The position numbers and the translations under genes are program-made. Source: Rhodococcus sp. 14-2470-1b (lineage in GTDB: Bacteria > Actinomycetota > Actinomycetes > Mycobacteriales > Mycobacteriaceae). Taken from it: 64,000 nt of DNA. The notes under the pieces were generated by a model. It saw only the letters and a list, made by a program, of their open reading frames with translations, ran no database searches and had not been told where the DNA came from. The stretch is taken from NCBI RefSeq assembly GCF_002259415.1, contig NZ_NPFY01000019.1, forward strand, positions 1 to 64,000, read 5' to 3'. This document shows, one piece after another, positions 49,057 to 64,000 of the stretch; within the stretch, counting starts at the first letter, position 1; each line of letters begins with the position of its first letter.

Positions 49057-49155
49057 CGATCAACCTCCGCCGCAGCTAGACGGTTCCAAAGTAGACCGCC
49101 CGAGGGTATCCCGATTACACACCACTGGCCACAGAAGAAAACTGAGAAAATCAGA

Positions 49156-49176
49156 CTTGAGCGGAACAGACTCAAG
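49156..49176. promoter_or_regulatory. HspR operator (HAIR element) upstream of clpB
   Basis: CTTGAGC-N7-ACTCAAG matches the HAIR consensus CTTGAGT-N7-ACTCAAG with one mismatch. It lies 58 nt before the clpB start, between it and the divergent flavohemoglobin gene. This predicts repression by HspR (with DnaK) and release on heat shock. Confidence 0.85.
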
Positions 49177-49188
49177 TCTTGGTACGTT
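49163..49188 (+). promoter_or_regulatory. Candidate SigH/SigE-type promoter of clpB
   Basis: GGAACA at 49163-49168 and CGTT at 49185-49188 are 16 bp apart, the arrangement used by the stress sigma factors SigH and SigE (GGAAC and GTT). The -35 lies inside the spacer of the HAIR element, so HspR binding would directly block it. In M. tuberculosis clpB is under both SigH and HspR. Confidence 0.55.
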
Positions 49189-49234
49189 GTACCCACCGAC
49201 ATCAAATTTTCTCCCAGCAGAAAGCAGGTGACCG

Positions 49235-51781
49235 GTGGACAGTTTCACCCCCACCACGAAAACGCAGGCCGCACTCAGTGCCGCTCTGCAGGCCGCATCC
49301 GCGGCCGGAAACCCGGACATCCGTCCGGCCCATTTGTTGGTGGCGTTGCTCGATCAGACCGACGGCATCGCCTCCCCCCTGTTGAAGGCTGTCGGCGTCG
49401 ATCCTGCGACGGTGCGCGGTGAAGCTCGCACCCTGGTCGATCGACTCCCGTCGGCAACCGGATCGACAACGACTCCGCAACTCGGTCGCGAAGCGCTGGC
49501 GGCCATCACGGCTGCGCAGAACCTCGCTACCGAACTCGACGACGAGTACGTCTCCACCGAGCACCTCATGGTCGGACTCGCGACGGGTGACAGCGACGTC
49601 GCCAAGCTCCTGACCGGCCACGGCGCCGGACCCAACGAGCTGCGCGACGCCTTCCAGACTGTCCGCGGCAGCGCGCGCGTCACCAGCGCCGATCCCGAGA
49701 GCACCTACCAGGCGCTCGAGAAGTACAGCACCGACCTGACCGCCCGGGCCCGCGAAGGTCAGCTCGATCCGGTCATCGGCCGCGACACCGAAATTCGTCG
49801 CGTCGTCCAGGTACTGTCCCGTCGCACCAAGAACAACCCGGTTCTCATCGGTGAGCCCGGCGTCGGCAAGACCGCCATCGTCGAAGGTCTCGCGCAGCGC
49901 ATCATCGCCGGCGACGTGCCGGAAAGCTTGCGCGGTAAGACCGTCGTCTCGCTCGACCTCGGCTCGATGGTCGCCGGTGCGAAGTATCGCGGTGAATTCG
50001 AGGAGCGGCTCAAGGCCGTGCTCGACGACATCAAGAACTCGGCCGGGCAGGTCATCACCTTCATCGACGAGCTCCACACCATCGTCGGAGCTGGCGCGAC
50101 CGGTGAGTCCGCGATGGACGCGGGCAACATGATCAAACCGATGCTCGCGCGCGGTGAACTGCGGCTCGTCGGTGCGACCACGTTGGAGGAGTACCGCAAG
50201 TACATCGAGAAGGACGCAGCGCTCGAGCGTCGATTCCAGCAGGTCTACGTCGGCGAACCGTCCGTCGAGGACACCGTCGGCATCCTGCGTGGGCTCAAGG
50301 AGCGCTACGAGGTGCACCACGGTGTGCGCATCACGGACTCCGCACTCGTCTCCGCCGCCACACTGTCCGACCGCTACATCACGTCGAGGTTCCTGCCGGA
50401 CAAGGCAATCGACCTGGTCGACGAGGCCGCGTCGCGTCTCCGCATGGAGATCGACTCGCGTCCCGTCGAAATCGACGAGGTCGAACGAGCCGTCCGGCGA
50501 CTCGAGATCGAGGAGATGGCGCTCGAGAAGGAGACCGACGATGCGTCGAAGGCTCGTCTCGAGAAGCTGCGCGCGGAACTGGCCGACGGCCAGGAAAAGC
50601 TCAACCAGTTGAGCACCCGCTGGCAGAACGAGAAGAACGCCATCGATTCGGTTCGCGTCCTCAAAGAAGAACTCGAGAACCTGCGCGGTGAATCCGAGCG
50701 TGCCGAACGCGACGGAGATCTGGGAAAGGCAGCCGAACTTCGGTACGGCCGCATCCCGACGCTCGAGAAGGAGCTTGCCGAGAAGACACAGGCAACTCCG
50801 GCGCAGGACGACGTCATGCTCAAGGAAGAGGTCGGTCCGGACGATGTCGCCGACGTCGTCGCAGCCTGGACCGGCATTCCTGCAGGCCGCATGCTCGAGG
50901 GCGAAACCGCGAAGCTGCTGCGGATGGAAGACGAGTTGGGCAAGCGCGTCGTCGGGCAGAAGGACGCCGTGCAAGCGGTGTCCGACGCCGTCCGTCGTGC
51001 TCGCGCCGGCGTCGCCGATCCGAACCGTCCGACGGGCTCGTTCCTGTTCCTCGGTCCGACCGGTGTCGGCAAGACCGAACTCGCGAAAGCGTTGGCGGAC
51101 TTCCTGTTCGACGACGAGCGCGCCATGGTCCGCATCGACATGAGCGAGTACAGCGAGAAGCACGCCGTAGCTCGACTCGTCGGCGCGCCTCCCGGCTACG
51201 TCGGCTACGAGGCAGGCGGTCAACTCACCGAAGCCGTCCGCAGGCGTCCGTACAGCGTGATTCTGTTCGACGAGGTCGAGAAGGCTCACCCCGATGTCTT
51301 CGACATCCTGTTGGCCGTGCTCGACGAAGGCAGGCTGACCGACGGGCAGGGACGCACGGTCGACTTCAGGAACACCATCTTGATCCTGACGTCGAACCTC
51401 GGTGCCGGGGGATCGAAGGACCACGTCATGGATGCGGTCAGGCGCGCGTTCAAACCGGAGTTCGTCAACCGCCTCGACGACGTGGTGGTGTTCGACTCGC
51501 TCTCCGAGGATCAGCTGGAATCGATCGTCGACATCCAGCTCGGCTTCCTGGCCCGCAGGCTCGCAGCTCGCAGGCTCACGCTCGATGTGACCTCGCCGGC
51601 GAAGCTGTGGCTGGCAGCTCGGGGCTACGACCCGTTGTACGGCGCTCGTCCGCTGCGCAGGCTGATCCAGCAGGCCATCGGTGATCAGTTGGCCAAGCTG
51701 CTGCTCGCAGGAGATGTCCGCGACGGCGACGTCGTGCCGGTGAACGTATCGGCAGACGGCGACGCACTGGTCCTGGGTTAG
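49235..51781 (+). CDS. clpB: ATP-dependent disaggregase ClpB
   Basis: This 848-residue Hsp100 chaperone works with DnaK to rescue aggregated proteins. It has the N-terminal repeat domain (to ~145), first AAA module with GEPGVGKT, the coiled-coil middle domain (~400-530), and second AAA module with GPTGVGKT and a C-terminal small domain ([16 protein letters not shown]). GTG 49235 follows an AGCAGGTGA site. A HAIR element and a SigH-like promoter lie upstream, and a long perfect hairpin follows the stop. Confidence 0.97.
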
Positions 51782-51793
51782 ACCGAGTATTTC

Positions 51794-51849
51794 GCTCCAC
51801 TCTTGCGCGATATTTGCGGGATTCCGTGAATATCGCGCAAGAGTGGAGC
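51794..51849. terminator. Long perfect inverted repeat after clpB
   Basis: Two 21-bp arms, 51794-51814 and 51829-51849, are perfectly complementary around a 14-nt loop, starting 12 nt after the clpB stop. The strength suits a terminator, but there is no T-tract, and the arm end (GCTCCACTCTTGCGCG) resembles the ends of the repeats at 34299-34359. It may therefore be a dispersed palindromic element. Confidence 0.7.
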
Positions 51850-51905
51850 TCTGTGCACGCCTGGACGTTCGTCACCCGCGAGGTGCCGGACGTACCCTCG
51901 GTGTC

Positions 51906-52748
51906 ATGAGTCATCCGGACGGTCAGCGCGCGAGAGTGGAGCCCGCGGAAGGACCCCACGACCGGCCGTGGGAAGACGGCACCGCGAATCCGCCTCCGGA
52001 TCGTCCCGAATCCGATTACGTCGCCGACGGCTGGCAGGCATATCCGGACACCCAGCCGTACCCGGATTCCCAGCCCTATCAGCAGGCACAGCCCTATCCA
52101 CAGGCGCAGCCCTACCAGGACCAGCCGACGCAGCAGTACGGATATCCCCAGCAGTACTCGCCGCAGCAGCAGTACCCAGCCCAGCAGCCCAACCCGACCC
52201 AGGTGTTTCCGGCGTACGACCCGAGGCAACACCAGGCTCCGCCCGAGTACGGCGAGTATCAGGCTCCGCCCGAGCCGAAGGGGCCGCGGCGGTGGATGTT
52301 CGCGCTCGTCGCCCTGGCCGCGCTGGCGGTCGTCGTGCTGGCAGGAATTCTCGTGTTGACCAATCAACGATCCGACACCGACGACGTCGCGGTTCGGCCA
52401 CCGACCAGCCTGGCCCCGATCCCCACGCTCCCACCGAGCCAGGCGCCCCTCGCGCCACCGTCGGCTCCCGGTGGACTCGTCCCGGGAGGTATCCCGGAAA
52501 TTCTGGGGAACTCCGGCGCGGCGATCGGAAACATCACCGCCATCGACGGTCCGACTCTGACGATCCAGGGCATCGACGGCGCCCCCGTCACGGTTCTCGT
52601 CACCCCGCAGACGCAGGTCCTGTCCCTGTCCGGCTTCGACGCCTCCTCGCTGAAGGTCGGGTCGCTCGTCGTCGTGAACGGCAGCCCCATGGAGAACGGT
52701 GCCATCACGGCGGACATCATCGTGGAAACCCCCGACCTGGGCGGGTGA
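51906..52748 (+). CDS. Pro/Gln/Tyr-rich single-pass membrane protein with DUF5666-like domain
   Basis: This 280-residue protein has a disordered N-terminal ~125 residues rich in Pro, Gln and Tyr with repeated PYP/QPY units. One membrane helix follows (~residues 128-150), then a Pro-rich linker and a ~90-residue beta domain (IGNITAIDGPTLTIQGIDG ... LKVGSLVVVNG) typical of DUF5666-like OB folds. The tail faces the cytoplasm, the domain the outside. ATG 51906 is preferred over the open frame starting at 51843 in the hairpin arm. Function unknown. Confidence 0.7.
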   Translation: MSHPDGQRARVEPAEGPHDRPWEDGTANPPPDRPESDYVADGWQAYPDTQPYPDSQPYQQAQPYPQAQPYQDQPTQQYGYPQQYSPQQQYPAQQPNPTQVFPAYDPRQHQAPPEYGEYQAPPEPKGPRRWMFALVALAALAVVVLAGILVLTNQRSDTDDVAVRPPTSLAPIPTLPPSQAPLAPPSAPGGLVPGGIPEILGNSGAAIGNITAIDGPTLTIQGIDGAPVTVLVTPQTQVLSLSGFDASSLKVGSLVVVNGSPMENGAITADIIVETPDLGG

Positions 52749-52792
52749 GCCATCACGAGGCCGAACCGCTGGACGCTATAAGCTGACCCTCG

Positions 52793-53665
52793 ATGACGGC
52801 TATGTGGTTCGGACTTGCAGCGATCGCCCTCCTGGGTGCGGTCGCCCTTCTGTACATCGACCGTTCGCGCCGGGACCAGGTAGGCCGGGTACGGCAGATG
52901 TGGGCCAAGGCGCAGGGATACACGTACGAGGCGTCCGACGACGACATCGTGTTGCAGTTCCGTCGTGCTGCACTCGCCAAGCCCGAGCAGACCACTGCGG
53001 TGGACCTCGTGAGCGGAGTCCGACGCGGCGAGAAGTTCGTACTGTTCGACGTCGAGGAAACGTCGACGATTGTTGCAGTTCAACGACCCGTCGGATCCGA
53101 CGTGGACATCGACCTTCGGTTGAAGTCGACGCCGCCCCCTCGCGACTCGGACATGGAGCTGCTTGGATCGATCGGCCCCCGTGTCGTGTTCGCGACGAAC
53201 GTCGAAGTGGCGCGGCGCGTGTGCGATCAACGCATGGCTGCGTTCACCGAATCCGTTCCGGCCGGCCTGAACCTGCTGTGGAGCGAGAACGACTGGACAC
53301 TCGGATCGTTGCCGCTCGGCAGCACCGGACGCGACTGGGATGCCGCCATCGACGCCGTGGCACGACTGTCCGGGATGCTGCATGTACTACCGCCGGTCAA
53401 CAACCGACGTCCATCCGGTCCCGCTCGAACCAGCCCTCCGCAGCGCAGTCGACCCGAAACCACCGTCGGGCGCCAAAGCCCAGAACCCAGGCAGAGCCCA
53501 GAACCCCGCCAAAATCCAGAACCCCGGCAGGCGCGCCCCGAGGTGCGGCGTCCCGAGCCGAGGCCGCCGCTGCGTTCCGGTCCCGTGATCCAACCGTCGG
53601 GACCCCGGCCACCGAGCCGACCGACGCCCATCACCCGCGACTCGGACCGCCGCCGCCAGGACTGA
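52793..53665 (+). CDS. Membrane-anchored protein of unknown function (Rv0383c-like position)
   Basis: This 290-residue protein begins with a membrane helix (residues ~4-22), continues with a ~185-residue mixed alpha/beta domain (QMWAKAQGYTYE, KFVLFDVEET, GPRVVFATNVEVARRV), and ends in ~85 Pro/Arg-rich residues that include three RQxPEP-like repeats. Position between clpB and pyrE and length match Rv0383c of M. tuberculosis. Function is unknown. The repetitive end may be prone to length variation. Confidence 0.7.
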   Translation: MTAMWFGLAAIALLGAVALLYIDRSRRDQVGRVRQMWAKAQGYTYEASDDDIVLQFRRAALAKPEQTTAVDLVSGVRRGEKFVLFDVEETSTIVAVQRPVGSDVDIDLRLKSTPPPRDSDMELLGSIGPRVVFATNVEVARRVCDQRMAAFTESVPAGLNLLWSENDWTLGSLPLGSTGRDWDAAIDAVARLSGMLHVLPPVNNRRPSGPARTSPPQRSRPETTVGRQSPEPRQSPEPRQNPEPRQARPEVRRPEPRPPLRSGPVIQPSGPRPPSRPTPITRDSDRRRQD

Positions 53666-53734
53666 TCCGCAGGACCGGACATTCGGCGGTGTGGGACTCC
53701 ACAACACGTCGATCGCACCGTAGCCTTCAGTTTC

Positions 53735-54547
53735 ATGACCGCCGAACCGATCGAACCAGCGTCCCCCCTCACCGTGCGCCCGGTTGCCCTCGTCACCGGA
53801 CCGACGTCCGGTCTCGGCGCAGGATTCGCCACTCACCTCGCTGCTCGCGGCTACGACCTCGTGCTCGTTGCCAGGAACGAGGTGGGGCTGCGTTCGCTCG
53901 CGGACGACCTGCGCGTCCGCTTCGGAGCCGACTCGGAGATCATCCCGGCGGATCTGGCCACCCAGGCGGGACGGGACGTCGTCGCCGAGCGGCTGAGCCG
54001 GGGCGTCGAATTTCTCGTCAACAACGCAGGTTTCGGAACTTCGGGTGAGTTCTGGACAGCGGAACCCGAGCTGTTGCAGGCGCAGCTCGACGTCAACGTC
54101 ACCGCGGTGATGCAGTTGACCCGCGCAGCGCTGCCGTCGATGGTTGCTGCCGCGAAAGGCACCGTGGTCAACGTGGCGAGTGTTGCGGGCATTCTGTCCG
54201 GCCGCGGATCGACGTACTCCGCGTCCAAGGCGTACGTCATCTCGTTCTCCGAAGGACTGTCCGGTGGCCTCGCCGGCACAGGCGTCCAGGTGCAGGCACT
54301 GTGCCCCGGGTTCGTGCGCACCGAGTTCCACCAGCGCGCGGGCATCGAGATGTCCAGCATCCCGAAGTTCATGTGGCTGAACGTGGAACAGGTCGTGCGT
54401 GAATCCATGCGTGATCTGGGCAAGGGCAAAGTCATCAGTGTGCCGGGCGCGCAGTACAAGGTCCTGACGGCGCTCGGCACCAAGGTCCCCAAGAGTGCTG
54501 TGCGGAAGCTGACGAATCTGGTCGGTCGAGGTCGCGGCCGAACATAG
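53735..54547 (+). CDS. Short-chain dehydrogenase/reductase
   Basis: This 270-residue classical SDR has the cofactor motif TGPTSGLGAGF near residue 21, NNAGFG, a Ser in NVASVAG, and the catalytic YSASK. An Arg at RNEVGL after the second strand suggests NADP preference. A C-terminal basic tail (RKLTNLVGRGRGR) may touch membrane lipids. The substrate is unknown. It is the third plus-strand gene between clpB and pyrE. Confidence 0.88.
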   Translation: MTAEPIEPASPLTVRPVALVTGPTSGLGAGFATHLAARGYDLVLVARNEVGLRSLADDLRVRFGADSEIIPADLATQAGRDVVAERLSRGVEFLVNNAGFGTSGEFWTAEPELLQAQLDVNVTAVMQLTRAALPSMVAAAKGTVVNVASVAGILSGRGSTYSASKAYVISFSEGLSGGLAGTGVQVQALCPGFVRTEFHQRAGIEMSSIPKFMWLNVEQVVRESMRDLGKGKVISVPGAQYKVLTALGTKVPKSAVRKLTNLVGRGRGRT

Positions 54548-54562
54548 GCGACTTCGGCGCGT

Positions 54563-55183
54563 ATGGGCGAGCCTCCGAGCGCGATTCGAGTATCACCGTT
54601 AAATTCAGACCTTGTGACTGTTTTCGTGATCGTGGCGATCCTCGTACTTGCAGTTCTCGCCTACGCGGCGAGCGTCGAGCGTCGGGTACGGCGTTATCGG
54701 TCGAACACGGCCGCGAGCAGGCAGCTGGTGACCGTGGAGCTCGAGCGTCGCTACGTTCAGCTGGAGCCGTTCATCGCGGCCGTCGAATCGTCCGGCCTGG
54801 ACCAGGATCTGGTTCGTCAGCTCGTCGGCGCGAGGTCGTGGTCCAAGGCGGTACGAGACAAGAACCTCGGTCTTCAGGCACAGGCAGCCGCCGAGAACGC
54901 GCTGTCGGCGGCGGTGCACGCAGTGCTGTCCGAGTCCGACACCCACCCCAAGTTGCGATCCAACTGGGCTTTCCAAGGCCCCGCCGGCGACCTGGAAACA
55001 ACGGAGAAGCGCATCGCCGGCGCAGTGCGCGTCTACAACGACAATGCGTACGCGTTGGCGCAGCTGCGTAGTTCGTTCGCGACCAAGCCCATGGCCACGG
55101 TACTGAAGGTGGTTCCGCCCGAGCCGTTCGTCGAGCACGTCGACCTCGTCGCCGACGAAAAGCCGGAGGACGTGCCCGCCTGA
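54563..55183 (+). CDS. LemA-family protein
   Basis: This 206-residue protein has an N-terminal membrane helix (~residues 18-38) and a long-helix domain of the LemA type: ELERRYVQLEPFIAAVESSG, LRSNWAFQGPAGDLETTEKRIAGAVRVYNDNAYAL. LemA proteins face outward, and their role is poorly known. ATG 54563 lies 15 bp after the SDR stop. The acidic C-terminus is not part of the domain. Confidence 0.8.
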   Translation: MGEPPSAIRVSPLNSDLVTVFVIVAILVLAVLAYAASVERRVRRYRSNTAASRQLVTVELERRYVQLEPFIAAVESSGLDQDLVRQLVGARSWSKAVRDKNLGLQAQAAAENALSAAVHAVLSESDTHPKLRSNWAFQGPAGDLETTEKRIAGAVRVYNDNAYALAQLRSSFATKPMATVLKVVPPEPFVEHVDLVADEKPEDVPA

Positions 55184-55240
55184 GCCTGTGGGATTCCGGC
55201 CGGTAGATTCATCGACTGAATCGACCGAAGGGAACCTCAC

Positions 55241-55780
55241 ATGGCCGACAGTGCCCAGCGTGCCGAACTGGCCGAGCTGGTTCGTGAACTGGCCGTAGTC
55301 CACGGCAAGGTGACGTTGTCATCCGGCAAGGAAGCCGATTACTACGTCGACCTCAGACGCGCAACGCTGCATCACCGCGCGAGCGCGTTGATCGGAACGC
55401 TGATGCGCGAATTGGTGGCCGACTGGGACTTCGACTCCGTCGGCGGCCTGACGATGGGAGCCGATCCCGTCGCGTTGTCCATCGTCCACGCGGAAGGCCG
55501 CCCGATCGACGGCTTCGTCGTACGCAAGGCCGCGAAGGCGCACGGTATGCAGCGTCAGATCGAAGGACCCGACATCGTCGGCAAGCGGGTGTTGGTCGTG
55601 GAGGACACGACCACGACCGGGAACTCACCGCTGACTGCGGTGAAGGCGCTCCGCGACGCGGGAGCAGTCGTCGTCGGAGTTGCGACGGTAGTCGACCGGG
55701 CAACCGGAGCCGACGACGTCATCGCTGCCGAGGGGCTCGAATACCGCTCGCTGCTCGGCTTGGCCGATCTGGGTCTGTAG
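55241..55780 (+). CDS. pyrE: Orotate phosphoribosyltransferase PyrE
   Basis: This enzyme converts orotate and PRPP to OMP in pyrimidine synthesis. The PRPP motif VLVVEDTTTTGNS is clear, as are KVTLSSGKEADYYVDLR and the catalytic-loop region VRKAAKAHGMQRQIEG. The 179 residues are standard. CGAAGGGAA precedes ATG 55241. It is the last gene of the clpB-side block (Rv0382c in M. tuberculosis), followed by a strong hairpin. Confidence 0.95.
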   Translation: MADSAQRAELAELVRELAVVHGKVTLSSGKEADYYVDLRRATLHHRASALIGTLMRELVADWDFDSVGGLTMGADPVALSIVHAEGRPIDGFVVRKAAKAHGMQRQIEGPDIVGKRVLVVEDTTTTGNSPLTAVKALRDAGAVVVGVATVVDRATGADDVIAAEGLEYRSLLGLADLGL

Positions 55781-55791
55781 CAGCTTCGCCG

Positions 55792-55839
55792 CTGGTGGTG
55801 TGGTTAGGCGCCCCAGGGGGCACCCAACCACACCACCAG
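55792..55839. terminator. Hairpin between pyrE and the EthD gene
   Basis: CTGGTGGTGTGGTT at 55792-55805 pairs with AACCACACCACCAG at 55826-55839, and inner bases extend the stem with two mismatches. It lies between convergent genes and probably ends transcription both ways. Confidence 0.7.
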
Positions 55840-55851
55840 GCGCGGAGCGCC

Positions 55852-56157
55852 TCAGGCCACCTCGACCTCATGCATATCCATGACGAAGCCCGCTCCGGCG
55901 AAGTTGGGCATGTCGTCGGCACCGGCCTTGCCCTCCTCGGATCCGAGGGCTGCAATGGCGTCGTCCTTGGACGGGAAGTTCAGGTTGCCGACGACGAAGT
56001 GTGCAGGCTGGGATCCGTCCAGTGTTTCTGACACACCCCACTCGAACGAGATGATGCCGGGCATCTTCGCGGTCAGTGGCGCATGCACGCTTCGGTAGTG
56101 TGCCAAGAACGCATCGGGGTTCTCGGGGTGGTTGTAGGCGATGCTGATGCGAAACAT
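55852..56157 (-). CDS. EthD-domain small protein of the monooxygenase operon
   Basis: This 101-residue dimeric ferredoxin-fold protein has the EthD pattern: MFRISIAYNHPENPDAFLAH YRSVHAPLTAKMPG is split here as the N-terminal strand, helix and YxxxHxPL motif, with AHFVVGNLNFPSKDDAIAAL later. Related proteins accompany oxygenases and are often needed for turnover, though their chemistry is unclear. ATG 56157 has a good site (AGAAGGAG); a longer frame to 56436 lies inside the monooxygenase gene. It is the third gene of the esterase-monooxygenase-EthD operon. Confidence 0.85.
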   Translation of the reverse strand: MFRISIAYNHPENPDAFLAHYRSVHAPLTAKMPGIISFEWGVSETLDGSQPAHFVVGNLNFPSKDDAIAALGSEEGKAGADDMPNFAGAGFVMDMHEVEVA

Positions 56158-56168
56158 TCGAGCTCCTT

Positions 56169-57770
56169 CTAGTGGGTGATCGTGAAGCCTTCGTAACCCT
56201 TGGATGCGACGTCGTCGCAGATGTCGCGGTAGACGTTGAGTCCGCCGACGTAGGACATGATCATGCGAGGTTTGCCTGGGATGTTGGCGCCGGTGTACCA
56301 GGAGTTGCCCTCGGGGTAAAGCGTGGTGTCGGCGAGTTCGATTGCTTGCGTGGTCCATTCCTTTGCTGCGGTCTCGTCGGCCTCGAATGTCCTGGCGCCG
56401 ATCGACTCCAGATGTGCGACGGTGTCCGCTGTCCACTCGACGTGCTGTTCGATGGCGCAGACCACGTTGGTCAACACGTTGGGGCTACCGGGGCCGGTCA
56501 AGGTGAACAGATTGGGGAACTCGTCGACGGCGATACCCAGATATGTGGTGGGACCGTCGGTCCACTTGTCCTGCAGTGACTTCCCGTTGCGTCCACGGAT
56601 GTCGATCTTCAGCAGGGGGCCGGTGATGGCGTCGAAACCGGTGGCGAAGACTATGACGTCGAGCGGGTATTCGTCGTGGGCGGTCTTCAACCCGGTCGGA
56701 GTCAATCCTTCGATCGGCGCATCCTTCACGCTCACGAGCGATACGTTGTCGCGATTATAGGTCTGAAAGTAGTTGGTATCGAGTGTGATTCGCTTGGCCC
56801 CCAAGGGATGCTCGCGAGGTGAGAGTGCCTCGGCAAGTTCAGGGTCCTCGACGACGGATCGGATCTTGCCGCGGAAGAACTCGGCGATGGTGTCGTTGGC
56901 CTGCCGATTGCTGAGCAGGTCCGGGTAGGCAGCGATGAGATCGATGGCCCGATGGCGACTCCATCGTTCCTCGAACACCGCCAATCGCTCTTCCTCGGAG
57001 TGGTCGAATGTGTTGACTGACAATGTGTCCACGGGCTGGCCGCCCCCGGACGCCTTCGATGCGACCTTGAAGTTCTCGATGTCGGCTCGAAAGGACTGCT
57101 TCTCGTCCTCGGTCAATGGGCGATTGCCGCAGTCGAGGCTGAAGGCAGGTGTGCGCTGGAAAACCGTCAGATGTTCGGCCTGCTCGGCGATCTTCGGGAT
57201 CACCTGAACACCAGAAGATCCGGTGCCGATGACGCCGACCCGTTTGCCGGTGAAGTCGAACCCGTCGCGCGGCCACGCGCTGGTATGGATCGTCTCGCCC
57301 TCGTAGGCGTCGAGACCCGCGAAGTCGGGTGTCGATGACGTCGAGAGGCATCCCGCGGCGGTGATCAGGTACTTGGCGGTGACGTATTCACCGGCGTCGG
57401 TGCCGACCGTCCACCGTAACGCCTCCTCGTCCCAGACCGCTGATTCGACACGTACTCCGAAACGAAAGTGCTTCTTGACATCGAGTTTCTCGGCGACGAA
57501 GTCGATGTAACGCAGGATCTCCGGCTGAGCAGGATAGCGTTCTGTCCACTCCCACTCGTCGATGATGTCCTGGGAGAACGTGAACGCGTATTCCATGCTG
57601 ATGCAGTCGCATCGTGCGCCGGGATACGTGTTCCAGAACCACGTACCACCGACGGTTTCTGCGGCCTCGTATCCACGGACCGACAGGCCGAGAGACTTGA
57701 GCTTGTGCGTCATGTAGACGCCGGAGAAGCCGGCGCCGATGACGACGGCATCGAAATCGCTTGTGCTCAC
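56169..57770 (-). CDS. Type I Baeyer-Villiger monooxygenase (flavin, NADPH)
   Basis: This 533-residue flavoenzyme inserts oxygen beside a ketone to give an ester or lactone. FAD motif GAGFSG at 12-17; second fingerprint GGTWFWNTYPGARCD at 41-55; main fingerprint YEGETIHTSAW at 156-166 (Tyr where the consensus has Phe); NADP motif GTGSSG at 182-187; late ATGFDAITG. It is closest in feel to cyclohexanone/monoterpene-ketone monooxygenases. It lies between an HSL esterase gene (12 bp upstream) and an EthD gene, so the ester or lactone made can be hydrolysed by its neighbour. Confidence 0.92.
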   Translation of the reverse strand: MSTSDFDAVVIGAGFSGVYMTHKLKSLGLSVRGYEAAETVGGTWFWNTYPGARCDCISMEYAFTFSQDIIDEWEWTERYPAQPEILRYIDFVAEKLDVKKHFRFGVRVESAVWDEEALRWTVGTDAGEYVTAKYLITAAGCLSTSSTPDFAGLDAYEGETIHTSAWPRDGFDFTGKRVGVIGTGSSGVQVIPKIAEQAEHLTVFQRTPAFSLDCGNRPLTEDEKQSFRADIENFKVASKASGGGQPVDTLSVNTFDHSEEERLAVFEERWSRHRAIDLIAAYPDLLSNRQANDTIAEFFRGKIRSVVEDPELAEALSPREHPLGAKRITLDTNYFQTYNRDNVSLVSVKDAPIEGLTPTGLKTAHDEYPLDVIVFATGFDAITGPLLKIDIRGRNGKSLQDKWTDGPTTYLGIAVDEFPNLFTLTGPGSPNVLTNVVCAIEQHVEWTADTVAHLESIGARTFEADETAAKEWTTQAIELADTTLYPEGNSWYTGANIPGKPRMIMSYVGGLNVYRDICDDVASKGYEGFTITH

Positions 57771-57782
57771 GGAACACTCCTT

Positions 57783-58712
57783 TCAGGCGACAACGGATGT
57801 GAGATGGGCGCGAACGGATTCGCCGACGTACGCGATACCGGCGTCGGCTCCGGGGAGGATGTTGACGAACTGGAAGAAGCCATGCATCTGTCCGTCGAAC
57901 ACTCTCACCTCCACGGGCACGCCCGCGGCGGTGAGTTTCTCGGCATAGGCCTGACCTTCGTCGCGTAGAACATCGTGTTCGGCCAGCAACACCACTGCTG
58001 GTGCCACTCCTGACAGGTCCTCTGCGTGCAAGGGTGACACGTCCCAGTTGCGGCGTACTCCGGCATCGGGTGTGTAGAGATCCCAGAACCAGATCATCGA
58101 CGTCTTGTCGAGCATCAACTGGTTGGCGGGGTCGGCGTACGAGCTGTTGTCGAAATCGTGGTCGGTGACGGGGTAGACCAACACCTGTAGCGAGACGGCC
58201 GGGCCGTTCTCTCGCACTGCTCGCTGCGCGACGACGGCTGCAAGGTTGCCGCCGGAACTGTCGCCGCCGACCAGTAGCGGCAACGCAGAATCGGAGCGAG
58301 AAGCGGTCCACTGCAGAACATCCCATGCGTCGTCGGCTGCAGTCGGGTAGATGTTTTCGGGAGCGAGTCGGTAGTCGGGAAGCACTACGGTGCACCCGGT
58401 CTCGACCGCGAGGCGTCTGGCAAGTGTGTCGAACTGATCCGGTGTGCCGACGACCCAGCCACCGCCATGGAAGTAGACGAACACCCCGCGTGGGCTGTCG
58501 TCAGGTGTCAGGACGCGAACCGGAATTGCATGTCCATCCGCCGCCTCCACCGTCAGGTTCTCGACCGACGCCATCTCGGGCCCTGGACCGTAGAGGTCGA
58601 TGAATGTGTCGTTCATCGAGCGGACCTCGTCGGGGGTCATCTCGTGGAGCGCTTTACCGCCTCCTTCGGCGGCTTGGGCGAGGAACGCGGCGGTGGCGTC
58701 GTCGAGTGCCAT
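57783..58712 (-). CDS. HSL-family esterase/lactone hydrolase
   Basis: This 309-residue alpha/beta hydrolase of the hormone-sensitive-lipase group has the oxyanion motif YFHGGGWVVG, nucleophile GGDSSGGN, Asp in LLAEHDVLRDE and His in GQMHGFFQF. ATG 58712 follows GAAGGAG at about -8; ATG 58751 lacks such a site. It is the first gene of the operon with the Baeyer-Villiger enzyme, and would open the ester or lactone formed, as the epsilon-lactone hydrolase does in rhodococcal monoterpene degradation. No signal peptide. Confidence 0.9.
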   Translation of the reverse strand: MALDDATAAFLAQAAEGGGKALHEMTPDEVRSMNDTFIDLYGPGPEMASVENLTVEAADGHAIPVRVLTPDDSPRGVFVYFHGGGWVVGTPDQFDTLARRLAVETGCTVVLPDYRLAPENIYPTAADDAWDVLQWTASRSDSALPLLVGGDSSGGNLAAVVAQRAVRENGPAVSLQVLVYPVTDHDFDNSSYADPANQLMLDKTSMIWFWDLYTPDAGVRRNWDVSPLHAEDLSGVAPAVVLLAEHDVLRDEGQAYAEKLTAAGVPVEVRVFDGQMHGFFQFVNILPGADAGIAYVGESVRAHLTSVVA

Positions 58713-58852
58713 GACAGGACTCCTTCGGAGTGTTCTAATTACGGACGGCATCCGTTCAGGTGATACACCTCACTCTAAACGCTGATAATCATTCGCCGCA
58801 ACCATCTGTTGTCACGGCTTTTTCTGCTGCGACTTTGTCCTCAAATGTGATC

Positions 58853-58881
58853 TGGACAACTGGACGTTTTGGTTCTACTGT
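58853..58881 (+). promoter_or_regulatory. SigA-type promoter of the ABC transporter operon
   Basis: TGGACA at 58853-58858 and TACTGT at 58876-58881 are 17 bp apart, close to TTGACA and TAnnnT. The predicted leader is ~45 nt, ending in the strong site AGGAGGAG before ATG 58932. The 219-bp region is shared with the divergent esterase operon. Confidence 0.6.
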
Positions 58882-58931
58882 GACAGCGATCACGAGTTCA
58901 TGCGCATCATTGCCATGAAATAGGAGGAGCC

Positions 58932-60095
58932 ATGAAGTTCACCACGGGTCCCGGCAGGCTGGTCCTGTTCGGGCTGACCGGAGCCATGCTGTCGATGGCA
59001 GCATGTAGTGGGTCAGGCCCATCCGGTGCAACAGCCTCGGGGGAGATGCCCGCCGAGATCACCGTGCTCTCCACGACGGACAAGACCGGAACGCTCGCGT
59101 ACGTCGGAGGTTCCCAGCTCGAAGGTATCGAACTCGCCGTCCAAGAGATCAACGAGCAGAAGTTCCTCGGCGACTCCACGCTGAAGCTCGACAGTCGCGA
59201 CACCGCAGGCGACGCCCAGACAGCCGCGAGTCAGGTGACCGAAGGGATTGCGAACCCGAACGTCGCCGCCATCCTCGGCACCGTGTCCGGTGCGCAGTCC
59301 GTGGCGGTGGCGCCGATAGCAGAGTCGTCGAAGACTCCTGTCGTGTTCACCCAGTCCGGTAGTGCCGGTGTCGTCATCGGCGACTACACGTTCCGATCGA
59401 CCGCACCCCAGGAGACATACTTCCCCAAGGCGATCGATCATCTGAAGACCCTCGGCGCCAAGCGAATCAGCGTGCTCTACAACGCAGGCCAGCCGACACT
59501 GGCGGAGATCGCCGAGAATCAACTCCCCGCGTTGCAGGAGAGTGAGGATCTCGAGATCCTCTCGAGCACCAGCGTGCAGTCGACCACCCAGGACTTCGCG
59601 TCGACCATCACCAAGATCGTCGGCGAAAAGCCGGATGCCGTGGTGTTCCTCCTCGTCGGTGCGCAGAATTCCACCGCGATGTCGCAGCTGCGCCAAGCAG
59701 GCTTCGACGGCCCAGCCGTCGGAAATCCCGCCGCAGGCGCCGGAAACCTCGCGCCCGCAGGGCCTGCAGGCGCGGGAATGTTCTGGGCGACGGACTTCAA
59801 CTACCTTCAGACCGCACCGTCTTCGGTCTCCTTCGTCGAGGCTTACAACGCCAAATACGGCAAGAACCCGCTCAACTACGCAGCCGAAGGCTACGACGCG
59901 GCATGGATGATCGCCAGGGCCATCAAGGAATCGGGCGGCGCCTCGCGTGAGGACATCAAGAACGGTCTCGACGCCGTGGCCACGGCCGGATTCGACGGCG
60001 CCGTCGGACCGGTGACGTTCGAAGGCAACGACCAGCGAGTGGCGGGAGTTGTCGTCGAGTGGGACGGGACCGCAGAAGGGTTGCTGGCGGAATGA
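58932..60095 (+). CDS. ABC transporter substrate-binding lipoprotein (branched-chain amino acid type)
   Basis: This 387-residue type I periplasmic-binding lipoprotein has lipobox SMAAC at about residue 25, then the Leu/Ile/Val-binding fold: GGSQLEGIELAVQEINE, AAILGTVSGAQSVAVAPIAES, VVFTQSGSAG and NYAAEGYDAAWMIARAI. Family members also bind aromatic acids, amides and other carboxylates. Linkage to a monooxygenase operon and an SDR suggests the ligand is a catabolic substrate rather than an amino acid. First gene of a five-gene transporter set. Confidence 0.9.
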   Translation: MKFTTGPGRLVLFGLTGAMLSMAACSGSGPSGATASGEMPAEITVLSTTDKTGTLAYVGGSQLEGIELAVQEINEQKFLGDSTLKLDSRDTAGDAQTAASQVTEGIANPNVAAILGTVSGAQSVAVAPIAESSKTPVVFTQSGSAGVVIGDYTFRSTAPQETYFPKAIDHLKTLGAKRISVLYNAGQPTLAEIAENQLPALQESEDLEILSSTSVQSTTQDFASTITKIVGEKPDAVVFLLVGAQNSTAMSQLRQAGFDGPAVGNPAAGAGNLAPAGPAGAGMFWATDFNYLQTAPSSVSFVEAYNAKYGKNPLNYAAEGYDAAWMIARAIKESGGASREDIKNGLDAVATAGFDGAVGPVTFEGNDQRVAGVVVEWDGTAEGLLAE

Positions 60096-60096
60096 C

Positions 60097-60115
60097 GGTC
60101 ACCGAACGTTCACGG
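60097..60115 (+). repeat. GTGACCGAACG-family repeat, copy 3 (degenerate)
   Basis: GGTCACCGAACGTTCACGG, 1 nt after the stop of the binding-protein gene, keeps the CGAACG centre and imperfect symmetry of the family. It may attenuate transcription between the highly expressed binding-protein gene and its permease genes. Weak match. Confidence 0.35.
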
Positions 60116-60133
60116 AAGAGGTGATCTGAAACC

Positions 60134-61024
60134 ATGGGCCAGACACTCATCGATGCGGCGATACTCGGATCGATCTACGTACTGTTCTGTCTCGGCATGT
60201 CCCTCGTGTGGGGCACCGTCGGCATCCTCAACTTCGCGCACGGCGCGATCTTCATGTTCGCGGGGTTCGTCGGATACCTGGTGGTCAAGGACCAACAGCT
60301 GCCGATGATCGGCGTCATTGCGGTGTCGGTGTTCGTGGGTGCGTTGTTGTCCACAGCCATCGAAGTGCTTGCTTTCCAACCGATTCTGCGGAGGGCAAAG
60401 ACTCATCGGATCGCAGAGCTGCAAATTCTGATCGGCGGCATCGGCGTTGCTGCCATCCCGCTCGCGATCGCCCAGTACGTCACCAAGTCCGAACCGTTCG
60501 GATTCTCCAACAGTTCGTATGCAGTGAAGGTGTTCTCGCTCTTCGGTCTTCGCATCTCGAACACCGGTTTGATCATCGTGCTGTCCGCCGTGATTCTCAC
60601 GGTCGGGATGGCGATATGGCTGCGCAAGTCCATGGCAGGACTTGCGCTCCGTGCCATCGGTGTCGATGCCGAAACGGCAGCGTTGATGGGAGTCGACCGT
60701 CGAAAGCTCTCCCTGTCCACAATGGCCTTTGCCGGTGGTCTTGCCGGTCTCGCGGGCGCCTTGCTCACGTTCAATCTCGGCGCCATCACTCCGGAAAGCG
60801 GTGAGACACTGCTGATCAAGGCATTTGCGGTCATCATCCTCGGTGGCGTCGGGAGCACGGCCGGTGTCGCTGCCGGCGCCTACATTCTGGCGTTGTCGGA
60901 GACTCTGGTGTTGCGATTCACCGGTGGTGGCTGGGTCGACGCCGTGTGCTTCGGCATGATCTTCCTCGTCCTGCTGCTTCGCCCGCAGGGTCTCTTCGGC
61001 CGCAAGGAGGTGCGAAGGGTATGA
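60134..61024 (+). CDS. ABC transporter permease, LivH-like
   Basis: This 296-residue permease has ~8 helices and the LivH pattern: LGSIYVLFCLGMSLVWGTVGILNFAHGAIFMFAG at the start, the cytoplasmic coupling region ALRAIGVDAETAALMGVDRRKL, and GGVGSTAGVAAGAYILALSE. It starts 38 bp after the binding-protein gene and overlaps the next permease gene by 4 nt. Confidence 0.92.
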   Translation: MGQTLIDAAILGSIYVLFCLGMSLVWGTVGILNFAHGAIFMFAGFVGYLVVKDQQLPMIGVIAVSVFVGALLSTAIEVLAFQPILRRAKTHRIAELQILIGGIGVAAIPLAIAQYVTKSEPFGFSNSSYAVKVFSLFGLRISNTGLIIVLSAVILTVGMAIWLRKSMAGLALRAIGVDAETAALMGVDRRKLSLSTMAFAGGLAGLAGALLTFNLGAITPESGETLLIKAFAVIILGGVGSTAGVAAGAYILALSETLVLRFTGGGWVDAVCFGMIFLVLLLRPQGLFGRKEVRRV

Positions 61025-61953
61025 GTCAGTTCTATTTCACGCATATCGTTCTGTTCCAGAGCACGTTCACCGTTCTTCTTCTGGCTCTGAGCATCCAGGT
61101 CCAGCTTCGCATGGGCGTGTTCTCGTTCGCAGGCGCCGGGTTCTACGGTCTCGGTTCCTACGGCGCCGCGATCTTCGTGATCCGGTACGGGTTCAGCTCG
61201 TTCGCCGCGATTGCTGCCATCATGATCGTCTGCGGAGTGATCGGGTTTCTGCTGGCATTGCTGGTTCAGCGTCTCAACGGTCTCTACCTGGCGATGGCCA
61301 CGGTCTCCTTCGATCTGATCATCACGGTCGTCGCGCACAACGGTGGCTCGCTCACCGGCGCGTCGGTCGGACTGTTCGGCGCACTGGCGTTCCCCCAGTT
61401 GACCATCGGGCACATCATCGCGATCACGGTGCTCGTCGTCGCGCTTCTGGCGCTGAGCGAACGAGGTCGTCTCGGTCGTAGAATCGACGCGGTCCGTGAA
61501 GATCCGGAATTGGCCGCATCCATGGGTGTCAACGTTTCTCGCTATCGAATCAGCTCCTTCGTGATCAGTGGATTGATCGGCGCACTTGGTGGCGCGATCA
61601 ACGTATTACTGCGCACGACCGTGGCGCCGGAGAGCATCGGATTCCCCTTGGTGGTTCTCGGGTTGACGATCATCATCGTCGGCGGCGGGCGCTCGTGGCT
61701 CGGCATCGTCCTCGGCGCGATCATCTTCACATGGCTGCCGTACTACCTCGAGATCGTCGGGCAGTACCAGGCCATCGTCTACGGCATCATCGTCGCGATC
61801 GCTGCCGTCTACGTACCGGGCGGGATCTACGGAACCGCCCTTGATCTGGTTCGGAAGTCCAAGGCCAAAAGACTCGCAGGGGTTGCTCGTAAGAAGGAAC
61901 CCGACGACACGGTCGAGGAACTCGCTCTAGCCGAGATAGGGGATAAACCGTGA
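61021..61953 (+). CDS. ABC transporter permease, LivM-like
   Basis: This 310-residue permease has LivM marks: LRMGVFSFAGAGFYGLGSYGAAI, GLYLAMATVSFDLIITVV, the coupling segment IDAVREDPELAASMGVN, and IIIVGGGRSWLGIVLGA. It ends in a charged ~35-residue tail. ATG 61021 overlaps the LivH-like stop; the frame is open into that gene, but the earlier ATG at 60946 is inside it. Its stop overlaps the ATPase GTG by 4 nt. Confidence 0.92.
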   Translation: MSQFYFTHIVLFQSTFTVLLLALSIQVQLRMGVFSFAGAGFYGLGSYGAAIFVIRYGFSSFAAIAAIMIVCGVIGFLLALLVQRLNGLYLAMATVSFDLIITVVAHNGGSLTGASVGLFGALAFPQLTIGHIIAITVLVVALLALSERGRLGRRIDAVREDPELAASMGVNVSRYRISSFVISGLIGALGGAINVLLRTTVAPESIGFPLVVLGLTIIIVGGGRSWLGIVLGAIIFTWLPYYLEIVGQYQAIVYGIIVAIAAVYVPGGIYGTALDLVRKSKAKRLAGVARKKEPDDTVEELALAEIGDKP

Positions 61954-62777
61954 CTACCGACGCAGTGTCACGAGAGACTGTCGCTCGCCACGCCACAACC
62001 GAGGTGGTGCTCGGAATAGACGACGTCGCAGTCCACTACGGCGGCATCAAGGCTGTCGACGGTATTTCCTTCGACATCACCCGAGGAAAGATATTCGGCA
62101 TCCTCGGACCGAACGGATCCGGCAAGAGCACCCTGTTGGCGGCGATCACTCGATTGACGCCCCTGACACGCGGTGCCTTGACGTTCGAAGGCGAACCGTT
62201 TGCGAAGGTGTCTTCGCAGAAGGTCGCCAAGCTCGGCATTGCCCGCACATTTCAGACGGTACGACTACTGCCGGACCTGACCGTTCGCGAGAACGTCGCT
62301 CTGGGGGCGGACCTCGGCTCCGAGGAAGGTGGCCTTCGCGAGTTGTTGCTCGGGCGCAAGGCCTTGCTGAAGCGCTCGAAAGATGCGGTCGCGGAGGCGC
62401 TGGAGCGGACTGGGCTCTCGGGCTTGGAGGACATCAGGCCAGGGGAGCTGTCCTATGGGTTGCAGCGCCGGGTGGAGATCGCCCGCGCAATTGCCATGTC
62501 GCCCACACTTCTTCTGCTCGATGAGCCGACAGCGGGCATGAACAAGACCGAACGCGAGGATGTATCGGAGCTGTTGAAGAAGTTGCGCGAAGAAGGCCTG
62601 ACGCAACTTCTCGTCGAACACGACGTGCAGATGATGGTCGATACCTGCGACACGCTGATCGCAATGAATTTCGGCGTACTGATCGCGCAAGGGAAGCCGC
62701 AGGACGTCGTGCGCGAACCAAGTGTTCAGGAAGCCTATCTCGGGAAGCGAGGAGCGCAGGATGCTCGAAGTCAGTGA
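61950..62777 (+). CDS. ABC transporter ATP-binding protein, LivG-like
   Basis: This 275-residue ATPase has Walker A GPNGSGKST, signature LSYGLQRRVEIARAI (LSYGL instead of LSGGQ, common in LivG), Walker B LLLLDEPTAGM and H-loop VEHDVQMM. LivG-specific features are ARTFQTVRLLPDLTVRENV. An N-terminal extension of ~20 residues follows GTG 61950. It pairs with the LivF-like ATPase encoded next. Confidence 0.92.
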   Translation: MTTDAVSRETVARHATTEVVLGIDDVAVHYGGIKAVDGISFDITRGKIFGILGPNGSGKSTLLAAITRLTPLTRGALTFEGEPFAKVSSQKVAKLGIARTFQTVRLLPDLTVRENVALGADLGSEEGGLRELLLGRKALLKRSKDAVAEALERTGLSGLEDIRPGELSYGLQRRVEIARAIAMSPTLLLLDEPTAGMNKTEREDVSELLKKLREEGLTQLLVEHDVQMMVDTCDTLIAMNFGVLIAQGKPQDVVREPSVQEAYLGKRGAQDARSQ

Positions 62778-63477
62778 CCTCCACGTCCAGTACGGCAAGG
62801 TCAGCGCGGTCACGAACATCGGCCTGACGGTCGAACCCGGCCGAATTACGCTGGTTCTCGGGGCGAACGGAGCAGGTAAGAGTACGACGCTGCGAACCAT
62901 CGCCGGCTTGGTGGAACCGACGTCGGGCACCATCGTTCTCGATGATGTTTCCCTCGTCGGAGTCAAGGCCCACAAAGTGGTGCGACGCGGAATCTCACTC
63001 GTACCGGAGGGTCGTCAAGTCTTCGCGTCGTTGTCCGTGGCGGAGAACCTGCGTATCGGTGGATACACCTCGACCAGGGAGAAGCGCGAGAAGAACACCG
63101 AACTCGCGTATGAACTGTTTCCGATTCTTCGTGAGCGAAAGGACGGGCCTGCAGGACTGTTGAGCGGTGGTGAGCAGCAGATGCTTGCCTTCGGACGTGG
63201 ACTGATGTCCGATCCGAAGTACATCATGATGGACGAGCCGTCGATGGGTCTTGCGCCCGCCGTGGTCGACACCGTCATGGCAAGTGTCCGCGAGATCGCC
63301 GACCGCGGGCTCGGTGTGCTGATGGTCGAGCAGAACGCCGAAGCGGGGCTCAGGGTTGCCGACGATGTCGTCGTGGTCAATCGTGGCGACTCCGTGTACT
63401 CCGGTGGTGCCGAGGAAGCCCGCTCGCACTCCTCGGTGGTGCTGGCGTTCCTGGGTGAAGCGGCTTTGGGCGCATGA
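62761..63477 (+). CDS. ABC transporter ATP-binding protein, LivF-like
   Basis: This 238-residue ATPase has Walker A GANGAGKST, the LivF segment ISLVPEGRQVFASLSVAENL, signature LSGGEQQMLAFGRGLM, Walker B IMMDEPSMGLAP and VEQNAEAGLRVAD. ATG 62761 lies within the 3' end of the LivG-like gene (17-nt overlap). The stop overlaps the SDR start by 4 nt, tying the dehydrogenase to the transporter transcript. Confidence 0.92.
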   Translation: MLEVSDLHVQYGKVSAVTNIGLTVEPGRITLVLGANGAGKSTTLRTIAGLVEPTSGTIVLDDVSLVGVKAHKVVRRGISLVPEGRQVFASLSVAENLRIGGYTSTREKREKNTELAYELFPILRERKDGPAGLLSGGEQQMLAFGRGLMSDPKYIMMDEPSMGLAPAVVDTVMASVREIADRGLGVLMVEQNAEAGLRVADDVVVVNRGDSVYSGGAEEARSHSSVVLAFLGEAALGA

Positions 63478-64000
63478 GCAGGTTCAGCGGCAAAGTAGTC
63501 CTCATCACCGGTGCTGCCCGCGGACAAGGTCGTAACCACGCACTGCGTTTCGCCGCCGAAGGCGCCGACATCATCGCAGTGGACGCATGCGAGGACGTCG
63601 ACACCGTCGGATACGACCTTGCGACGGAGGACGACCTGGCGGAGACGGTGCGGGCGGTCGAGAAGCTCGACCGTCGGATCGTGGCGTCGAAGACGAATGT
63701 CCGCGACCTCGAGGCGCTACGTGCAGCCGTCGATTCCGCAGTAGGCGAACTCGGCCGACTCGACGTAGTGGTAGCCAATGCGGGAATTGCGGGTAGCGGT
63801 GTGACGCACGAGTTGTCCGCCGAGAATTGGCACAACATGATCGACACCAACCTGACCGGCGTGTGGAACACGACGACGGTCGCCACTCCGCACATCCTGA
63901 AAGGCGGCGAGGGCGGTTCGATGGTGCTCATCAGCTCCGTCGCGGGAACGAAAGGTCTGCCGTACAACGCCCATTACACCGCAGCCAAGCACGGTGTCCT
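63474..64000 (+). CDS. Mycofactocin-type short-chain dehydrogenase, truncated by the window end
   Basis: The first 175 residues are visible; the gene runs off the window. It has TGAARGQGRNHALRFAAEGA, then DIIAVDACEDVDTVGYDL, the ~15-residue insertion DLAETVRAVEKLDRRIVASK, VVANAGIAGSG, SSVAGTKG and the start of the active-site YTAAK. The GQGR and ADIIAVD segments are typical of the SDR family coupled to the redox cofactor mycofactocin, which includes carveol dehydrogenase. ATG 63474 overlaps the LivF-like stop. It probably oxidises an alcohol taken up by the transporter. Confidence 0.88.
   Translation, partial: MSRFSGKVVLITGAARGQGRNHALRFAAEGADIIAVDACEDVDTVGYDLATEDDLAETVRAVEKLDRRIVASKTNVRDLEALRAAVDSAVGELGRLDVVVANAGIAGSGVTHELSAENWHNMIDTNLTGVWNTTTVATPHILKGGEGGSMVLISSVAGTKGLPYNAHYTAAKHGV

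Follow-up and report, generated by a model that had tools for sequence, protein, structure and literature searches.

The stretch of DNA analyzed here (the window) covers the first 64 kb of a contig of 353,628 bases from Rhodococcus sp. 14-2470-1b, and its right-hand end carries a Baeyer-Villiger monooxygenase (BVMO) operon that diverges from a branched-chain-type (Liv-type) importer. Genes were called to 140 kb of the contig with a custom script, and annotation covered most genes from 55 to 119.6 kb. To the left lies pyrE (55241..55780, plus strand; TIGR00336 117.6 bits, cut-off 106.8). The minus strand then encodes an EthD-domain protein of 101 aa (55852..56157; TIGR02118 77.5 bits, cut-off 30.5), a type I BVMO of 533 aa with a GTG start (56169..57770), and an HSL-family alpha/beta hydrolase, hereafter the esterase (57783..58751, or 57783..58712 from an alternative start; PF07859 235 bits), with intergenic gaps of 12 and 11 bases in the order esterase-BVMO-EthD. 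A divergent promoter region (58752..58931) leaves approximately 180-220 bases between this operon and the importer operon on the plus strand, which comprises the binding lipoprotein SBP1 (58932..60095; PF13458 165 bits), a LivH-type permease (60134..61024; PF02653 124 bits), a LivM-type permease (61021..61953; PF02653 109 bits, scored on the open reading frame from 60946), a LivG-type ATPase (61950..62777; PF00005 118 bits, with PF12399), and a LivF-type ATPase (62761..63477; PF00005 96 bits, scored on the open reading frame from 62722). The livF gene overlaps by 4 bases, on the same strand, a mycofactocin-family short-chain dehydrogenase/reductase (SDR) gene (63474..64000 in the window, with the gene end at contig position 64304). 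All named genes have open reading frames, and the SDR alone is truncated by the window end. The positions, strands, and families of the EthD-BVMO-esterase operon and of the divergent importer, as given in an initial annotation made from the sequence, were borne out, as was the overlap of the last ATPase gene with the SDR gene.

The BVMO contains two Rossmann motifs (GAGFSG and GTGSSG) and the fingerprint YEGETIHTSAWP, of a type whose general form we take to be FxGxxxHTxxWP; it starts with tyrosine, where nine other relatives compared have phenylalanine. The nearest solved relatives were steroid monooxygenase (618-621 bits) and phenylacetone monooxygenase (1w4x, 589 bits), versus 495 bits for the best cyclohexanone enzyme and 472 bits for OTEMO, and by these higher scores the enzyme is assigned to the steroid/phenylacetone monooxygenase group. 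The two Rossmann motifs, the fingerprint, and a GPGSP..L.N loop are shared with steroid monooxygenase (4aos) and phenylacetone monooxygenase, but identity to 4aos is only 50.7% (268/529 residues) and the genomic context of the window enzyme is not one of steroid degradation. Phenylacetone monooxygenase converts phenylacetone into benzyl acetate. Steroid monooxygenase converts progesterone into testosterone acetate (PMC12239570). Because these are its nearest relatives, methyl-ketone chemistry is favored for the window BVMO, and the carveol/menthol lactone scheme put forward in the initial annotation was not upheld by the scores. In a tree of 50 BVMOs the window enzyme clustered with those of six other congeneric genomes, R. 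ruber, R. aetherivorans, and Gordonia hydrophobica (support 1.0).

HSL/GDXG-type esterases have an HGGGW oxyanion motif and a GDSxGG nucleophile motif, and the esterase carries HGGGW and GDSSGG; none of the NCBIfam HSL models was over its cut-off (best LipP1, 303 bits, cut-off 350). Its role may be the opening of a lactone or the cleavage of an acetate ester. The full-length SDR scored 395.4 bits against TIGR03971 (cut-off 300), in agreement with the mycofactocin group to which it had initially been assigned, and the mycofactocin maturase MftC is encoded in the same genome (645 bits, cut-off 265). TIGR03971 and TIGR03989 are described as mycofactocin-linked families, the former including the carveol dehydrogenase of R. 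erythropolis DCL14 (PMC3023750).

The window genes are the left end of a catabolic island of approximately 53 kb beside pyrE, which forms its left flank and lies outside it. From EthD to the end of an aldehyde dehydrogenase gene at contig position 110077, the annotated genes are nearly all degradation enzymes, transporters, and regulators. Thus, of the degradation cluster with its own importer that had been proposed, the cluster and an apparently dedicated importer stand, but the eight to nine genes seen then are only the edge of the island; beyond 64000, where further steps and a regulator had been sought, coenzyme A (CoA) ligases, beta-oxidation genes, and GntR and TetR regulators are present. 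The CoA chemistry of the island comprises two FadD-type ligases, a PaaK-like ligase, three acyl-CoA dehydrogenases, three CoA transferases, two thiolase-type proteins, several MaoC-type hydratases, and a CitE-type lyase. Redox enzymes include several SDRs (one of which, at 96515, also belongs to TIGR03971, with 419 bits), an alcohol dehydrogenase of the NDMA-dependent type (TIGR03989 515 bits, cut-off 440), two aldehyde dehydrogenases, a luciferase-like oxidoreductase (LLM) that matches F420-dependent subfamilies below cut-off, and a P450 with a ferredoxin reductase, next to which no ferredoxin gene was recognized. The remainder consists of five SnoaL-like proteins, two MFS transporters, one TRAP transporter, the GntR and TetR regulators, and a second binding protein. 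The TRAP transporter is complete (DctP, DctM, DctQ) and, together with the PaaK-like ligase and MaoC-type genes, forms a cassette of the island at contig positions 64474-70748. The island has a G+C content of 62.7%, versus 65.4% in window positions 1-55780.

The closest relatives of the CitE-type lyase are citrate lyase beta, malyl/beta-methylmalyl-CoA lyase, and CLYBL, and that of the hydratase MaoC80 is beta-methylmalyl-CoA dehydratase. Beta-methylmalyl/citramalyl-type enzymes act on methyl-branched dicarboxyl-CoA compounds, and the resemblance of both proteins to this group favors methyl-branched fragments; the pair may complete the breakdown of a methyl-branched fragment of the ring or cleave a side chain that bears a 3-methyl group. 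The two proteins also match the models for the itaconate degradation enzymes RipB/Ich and RipC/Ccl (125 and 129 bits, respectively), but far under the curated cut-offs (340 and 375 bits). No homologue of the lyase above 36% identity was found outside the island in ten congeneric genomes at E 1e-30.

No RNA family reached its gathering score in the window, and no tRNA was found at the left end of the island in window positions 48000-64000. The divergent promoter region 58752-58931 contained no palindrome with half-sites of 7-9 bases, no palindrome was common to any two of the island promoter regions, and three other operator patterns yielded nothing shared among them. The pattern TGKTNNNACMA, with one mismatch allowed, occurred at five sites versus 0.94 expected; since the pattern was chosen after the palindrome had been seen and three of the five sites lie in one region, no operator is claimed.

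To establish the distribution of the island, 37 congeneric genomes were searched. SBP1 was found in seven (E 1e-20), each time with a second paralogue 31-44 kb away, and the genes between the two binding proteins were collinear in all seven carriers as far as read (40 kb for G011). The order EthD-BVMO-esterase/SBP-LivHMGF was kept in 7/7 carriers and the SDR lay directly behind LivF in six, the exception being G007, so the arrangement is more than chance. Other parts vary: all three TRAP genes were present in three of the seven carriers, with one TRAP gene also in G033, and a TetR-to-MFS block (83.4-90.6 kb) likewise in three. Five of the other six carriers share an SMP-30-type lactonase that lies at 110132, after the aldehyde dehydrogenase (in the sixth, G011, the read stops short). 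Contig positions 110132-114697 of strain 14-2470-1b encode, besides this lactonase, an SDR, an additional P450, and an additional BVMO with 49% identity to the first. In G007, too, a second BVMO lies close to the right-hand end of its island. Apart from a single-contig genome discussed below (G027), named carriers are R. kyotonense KB10 and Rhodococcus sp. H36-A4, AW25M09, IEGM 1381, and 14-1411-2a.

The pyrE gene was found in 37/37 genomes, and the island was absent from the pyrE site in three relatives. In the non-carriers G010, G004, and G024, pyrE and fba are 10.5, 12.1, and 11.6 kb apart, respectively; the corresponding distances in the carriers G027, G026, and G007 are 62.8, 60.4, and 71.5 kb. 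The flanks of the island are 82 bases apart in G010 versus 52.3 kb apart in G027. In G007, approximately 2.7 kb of flank separates pyrE from EthD, indicating that its insertion point or subsequent history differs. The pyrE protein closest to that of the window (98%) belongs to the non-carrier G004, and hence the distribution is patchy. We propose that the island is a mobile block. The usual right flank does not reappear within the first 200 kb of the contig of strain 14-2470-1b, and fba lies on another contig (G000:C40:12301-13338), which points to rearrangement or an assembly break.

The gene content bears on two other accounts of the BVMO. In one, of the limonene/carveol, cineole, or cyclohexanol type, the SDR would oxidize a cyclic alcohol to a ketone, the BVMO would turn this ketone into a lactone, to be opened by the esterase or by the SMP-30 lactonase. 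All of these enzyme types are present, along with alcohol and aldehyde dehydrogenases, the lactonase, and a P450 whose best solved relatives are a CYP125 ancestor (205 bits) followed by P450cin (189 bits), and the SDR family includes carveol dehydrogenase (PMC3023750). Compared by chemical roles, not by sequences, the limonene/carveol pathway of R. erythropolis DCL14 as described in PMC4097962 shares a mycofactocin-family SDR, a BVMO, and a hydrolase with the island. However, cyclohexanone enzymes and OTEMO are more distant from the BVMO than methyl-ketone enzymes are, and the steps published there lack an importer and a comparable array of CoA ligases, CoA transferases, and lyase, with the P450 as a further difference; such a lactone pathway is thus unlikely here.

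In the other account, which is highly improbable, the BVMO would convert progesterone into testosterone acetate, the esterase would release testosterone, and the SDR would oxidize it. The best solved relative of the BVMO is indeed steroid monooxygenase, that of the P450 is the CYP125 ancestor, and BVMO and LLM enzymes perform this side-chain removal in Caenibius tardaugens, where their genes lie together in the pdc cluster and an acetate ester is formed (PMC12239570); the island also has an LLM gene. That cluster is small and steroid-specific, whereas the island is far larger, its LLM matches the F420-dependent subfamilies noted above, and neither strain 14-2470-1b nor three other carriers (four of seven) yielded a match to KshA (PF19298). 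A steroid role for the BVMO was set back by the absence of any KshA match in its own genome. KshA occurs in 14 genomes of the genus, of which 11 lack the island. Steroids are disfavored, yet still conceivable, as the substrate in the three carriers in which KshA was found (G007, G027, and G032).

Conservation outside the genus was examined through homologues of the binding protein in 397 genomes of the order (E 1e-60). Matches came from 17 genomes, of which 15 belong to other genera and account for 16 places. Neighborhoods of 60 kb were read around 15 of these places and of 32 kb around the sixteenth, using identity cut-offs of 48%, lowered to 40% for binding proteins, SDRmft, SnoaL93, and g95662, and to 45% for EthD. 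Reshuffled versions of the cluster were found at 14 of the 16 places, both exceptions being in genome G122. LivF was present at 16/16 places and LivH, LivM, and LivG at 15/16; FadD76, ACAD78, the CitE-type lyase, MaoC80, FadD94, and thiolase 72 at 14/16 each; the P450, ECH104, ACAD92, and CaiB82 at 13/16; the NDMA-dependent alcohol dehydrogenase and the aldehyde dehydrogenase ALDH108620 at 12/16; the esterase at 11/16; EthD at 10/16; LLM and SDRmft at 7/16; and the GntR regulator and ferredoxin reductase at 6/16. SDR74, SnoaL97, and MFS101 were found at none of the 16. In eight control regions (seven of 20 kb and one of 55 kb, mostly shorter than the test regions), only the BVMO, for which four of the loci had been chosen, and one SDR passed. 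That the set is retained although its order differs between groups suggests that selection keeps these genes together.

A second search, with the lyase (E 1e-80), gave matches in 39 of 401 genomes of the family, and in nine genomes from outside the genus the match was at least 71% identical. Around these nine (20-40 kb read), FadD76 was found in 9/9, ACAD78 in 8/9, a BVMO (at least 42% identical) in 4/9, and Liv genes in 2/9. Two of the nine genomes are R. ruber NBRC 15591 and G. hydrophobica NBRC 16057, the latter having a BVMO (66%), Liv genes, and two matches resembling the binding proteins further along the contig. In Saccharopolyspora (L034) and G. rhizosphera (L037), a BVMO-esterase pair has an ALDH108620 homologue next to it or close by, which also favors methyl-ketone chemistry. 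Plasmid pmega_1 of R. ruber MSA14 (337-362 kb, L158) carries a CoA ester lyase (46% identical), a MaoC protein, and an ABC importer, with a mycofactocin SDR, EthD, LLM, and an NTF2-type protein side by side, but the importer is of another type and no BVMO is annotated in the stretch shown. Other candidate relatives were set aside. On plasmids of R. ruber and Polaromonas sp. JS666, ACAD78 has homologues of 52-61% identity that belong to different acyl-CoA clusters, and this is also true of the lyase homologue in R. opacus DSM 44186.

The importer operon holds the full Liv-type set from the corresponding Pfam families, a binding protein and two each of permeases and ATPases, and it could be an ordinary branched-chain amino acid importer placed by chance beside unrelated oxidative genes. 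The family assignments of all components favor this, as do the four nearest solved relatives of SBP1 (82-98 bits), which are annotated as branched-chain amino acid or HAAT-family binding proteins; several of the nearest solved proteins are annotated as amino acid binders. The catabolic context weighs on the other side, given that 14 of the 16 outside homologues lie in the same cluster despite its differing gene order and that LivF overlaps the SDR; moreover, no importer protein reaches the cut-off of an NCBIfam Liv/Urt model. At one ligand-site column SBP1 has glutamine, versus glutamate, glutamate, and aspartate in 3td9, 4gnr, and 4nqr, and the residue is non-acidic in 31/31 aligned binding proteins (glutamine in 28, otherwise alanine, serine, or proline). 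The acidic residue presumably holds the amino group of the ligand, and its loss fits a ligand of SBP1 without an amino group, without pinning the ligand down. Amino acid import, set back by the catabolic context and the lost acidic residue, appears very improbable. The lipobox cysteine of SBP1 is almost invariant across 27 homologues, and no homologue was found on plasmids (72,556 records, E 1e-40). Judged by title or start of abstract, none of the few papers found in literature searches describes a Liv-type importer paired with a BVMO.

A candidate substrate is offered by Rhodococcus sp. P1Y, which, according to PMC9599779 and PMC7996341, converts abscisic acid into dehydrovomifoliol, a methyl ketone, and then into rhodococcal acid. 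For the second step the authors propose a BVMO with acetate release, the enzymes being yet to be established, and they cite a P1Y transcriptome as unpublished (PMC9599779). The P1Y chromosome is reported as one circle of 5,868,661 bp with 63.19% G+C and 12 rRNA genes (PMC6460035). Carrier G027 is a single contig of 5,868,661 bases, with 62.9% G+C over the 100 kb measured, and is presumed to be Rhodococcus sp. P1Y. If so, the island is present in P1Y and its gene set fits both metabolites; the papers, in their available portions (PMC7996341, PMC9599779), assign no gene, and the connection with the island is ours. Mechanisms of microbial abscisic acid catabolism were termed unknown in 2019 (PMC6460035), and in literature on abscisic acid degradation, including that on R. 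globerulus AX7B and judged mostly by title or abstract, no assignment of a catabolic gene was found.

From the island, its gene families, its conservation, and its presence in the presumed P1Y genome, all of which are observed, we infer every reaction as well as the substrate. A methyl-branched alicyclic compound of terpenoid type is the probable substrate of the island. Uptake of this compound or its acid would fall to the Liv-type importer and its two binding proteins, and side-chain carbons would be taken off as CoA thioesters. At the stage of a methyl ketone, oxygen insertion by the BVMO would give an acetate ester, from which the esterase would free acetate together with an alcohol or, in the case of an enol acetate, an aldehyde; alcohol and aldehyde dehydrogenases would then yield an acid for the next CoA ligase. 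The ring would be finished by the P450, the mycofactocin-linked dehydrogenases, and the methyl-dicarboxyl-CoA hydratase/lyase pair. Abscisic acid is the leading candidate as a single substrate, and that it is the actual one is a tentative proposal that may well prove wrong. In this case, CoA-dependent enzymes would shorten the side chain to dehydrovomifoliol, the BVMO would convert this enone into an enol acetate, the esterase would release acetate and an aldehyde, and ALDH108620 would form rhodococcal acid, with the remaining island genes degrading the trimethylcyclohexenone ring.

Several observations weigh against this assignment. A BVMO of at least 48% identity was present at 10 of the 16 outside places, with none in the read stretch at the other six, and in the 50-BVMO tree the enzymes at the cluster slot elsewhere belong to at least three other clades (neighborhoods G082, G277, G063, and G218 versus G181, G210, G357, G326, G287, and G349). 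Despite the change of BVMO clade, the esterase (57-60%) and aldehyde dehydrogenase (70-76%) remain nearer to those of the window. Hosts may differ in the compounds for which they use the pathway, or the slot may be easily refilled. The substrate of the lyase/hydratase pair may be a ring fragment and not the side chain, and the SMP-30 lactonase at the right end allows a lactone step. Only three small-subunit rRNA genes were found in G027, while the 12 rRNA genes published for P1Y suggest four. Given a base rate of 7/37, presence of the island in P1Y could be coincidence, and G027 has a second BVMO of the same group outside the island (49% identical, E 1e-60). This second gene (C1:1719746-1723476) lies approximately 1.5 kb from a KshA-type gene, perhaps in a steroid locus. 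As a strict marker of the pathway the BVMO was ruled out, cluster BVMOs falling into at least four clades; an order-wide search with the window enzyme (E 1e-190) gave matches in six of 397 genomes, four of them outside the genus and all four in other surroundings.

Results are consistent with, and tentatively interpreted as, a bacterial abscisic acid cluster that is mobile within the Rhodococcus fascians/kyotonensis group and has shuffled relatives in other actinobacterial families, an assignment held with somewhat less than even confidence. With an island that is delimited, that seems to be carried by the best-studied degrader, and that encodes enzymes fitting its two known metabolites, the question of the abscisic acid pathway becomes testable. 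Furthermore, whatever the terpenoid, the combination of a Liv-type importer, a P450, and CoA ligases, usually with a BVMO-esterase pair, is kept across families despite reshuffled gene order, which points to a recurring catabolic unit.

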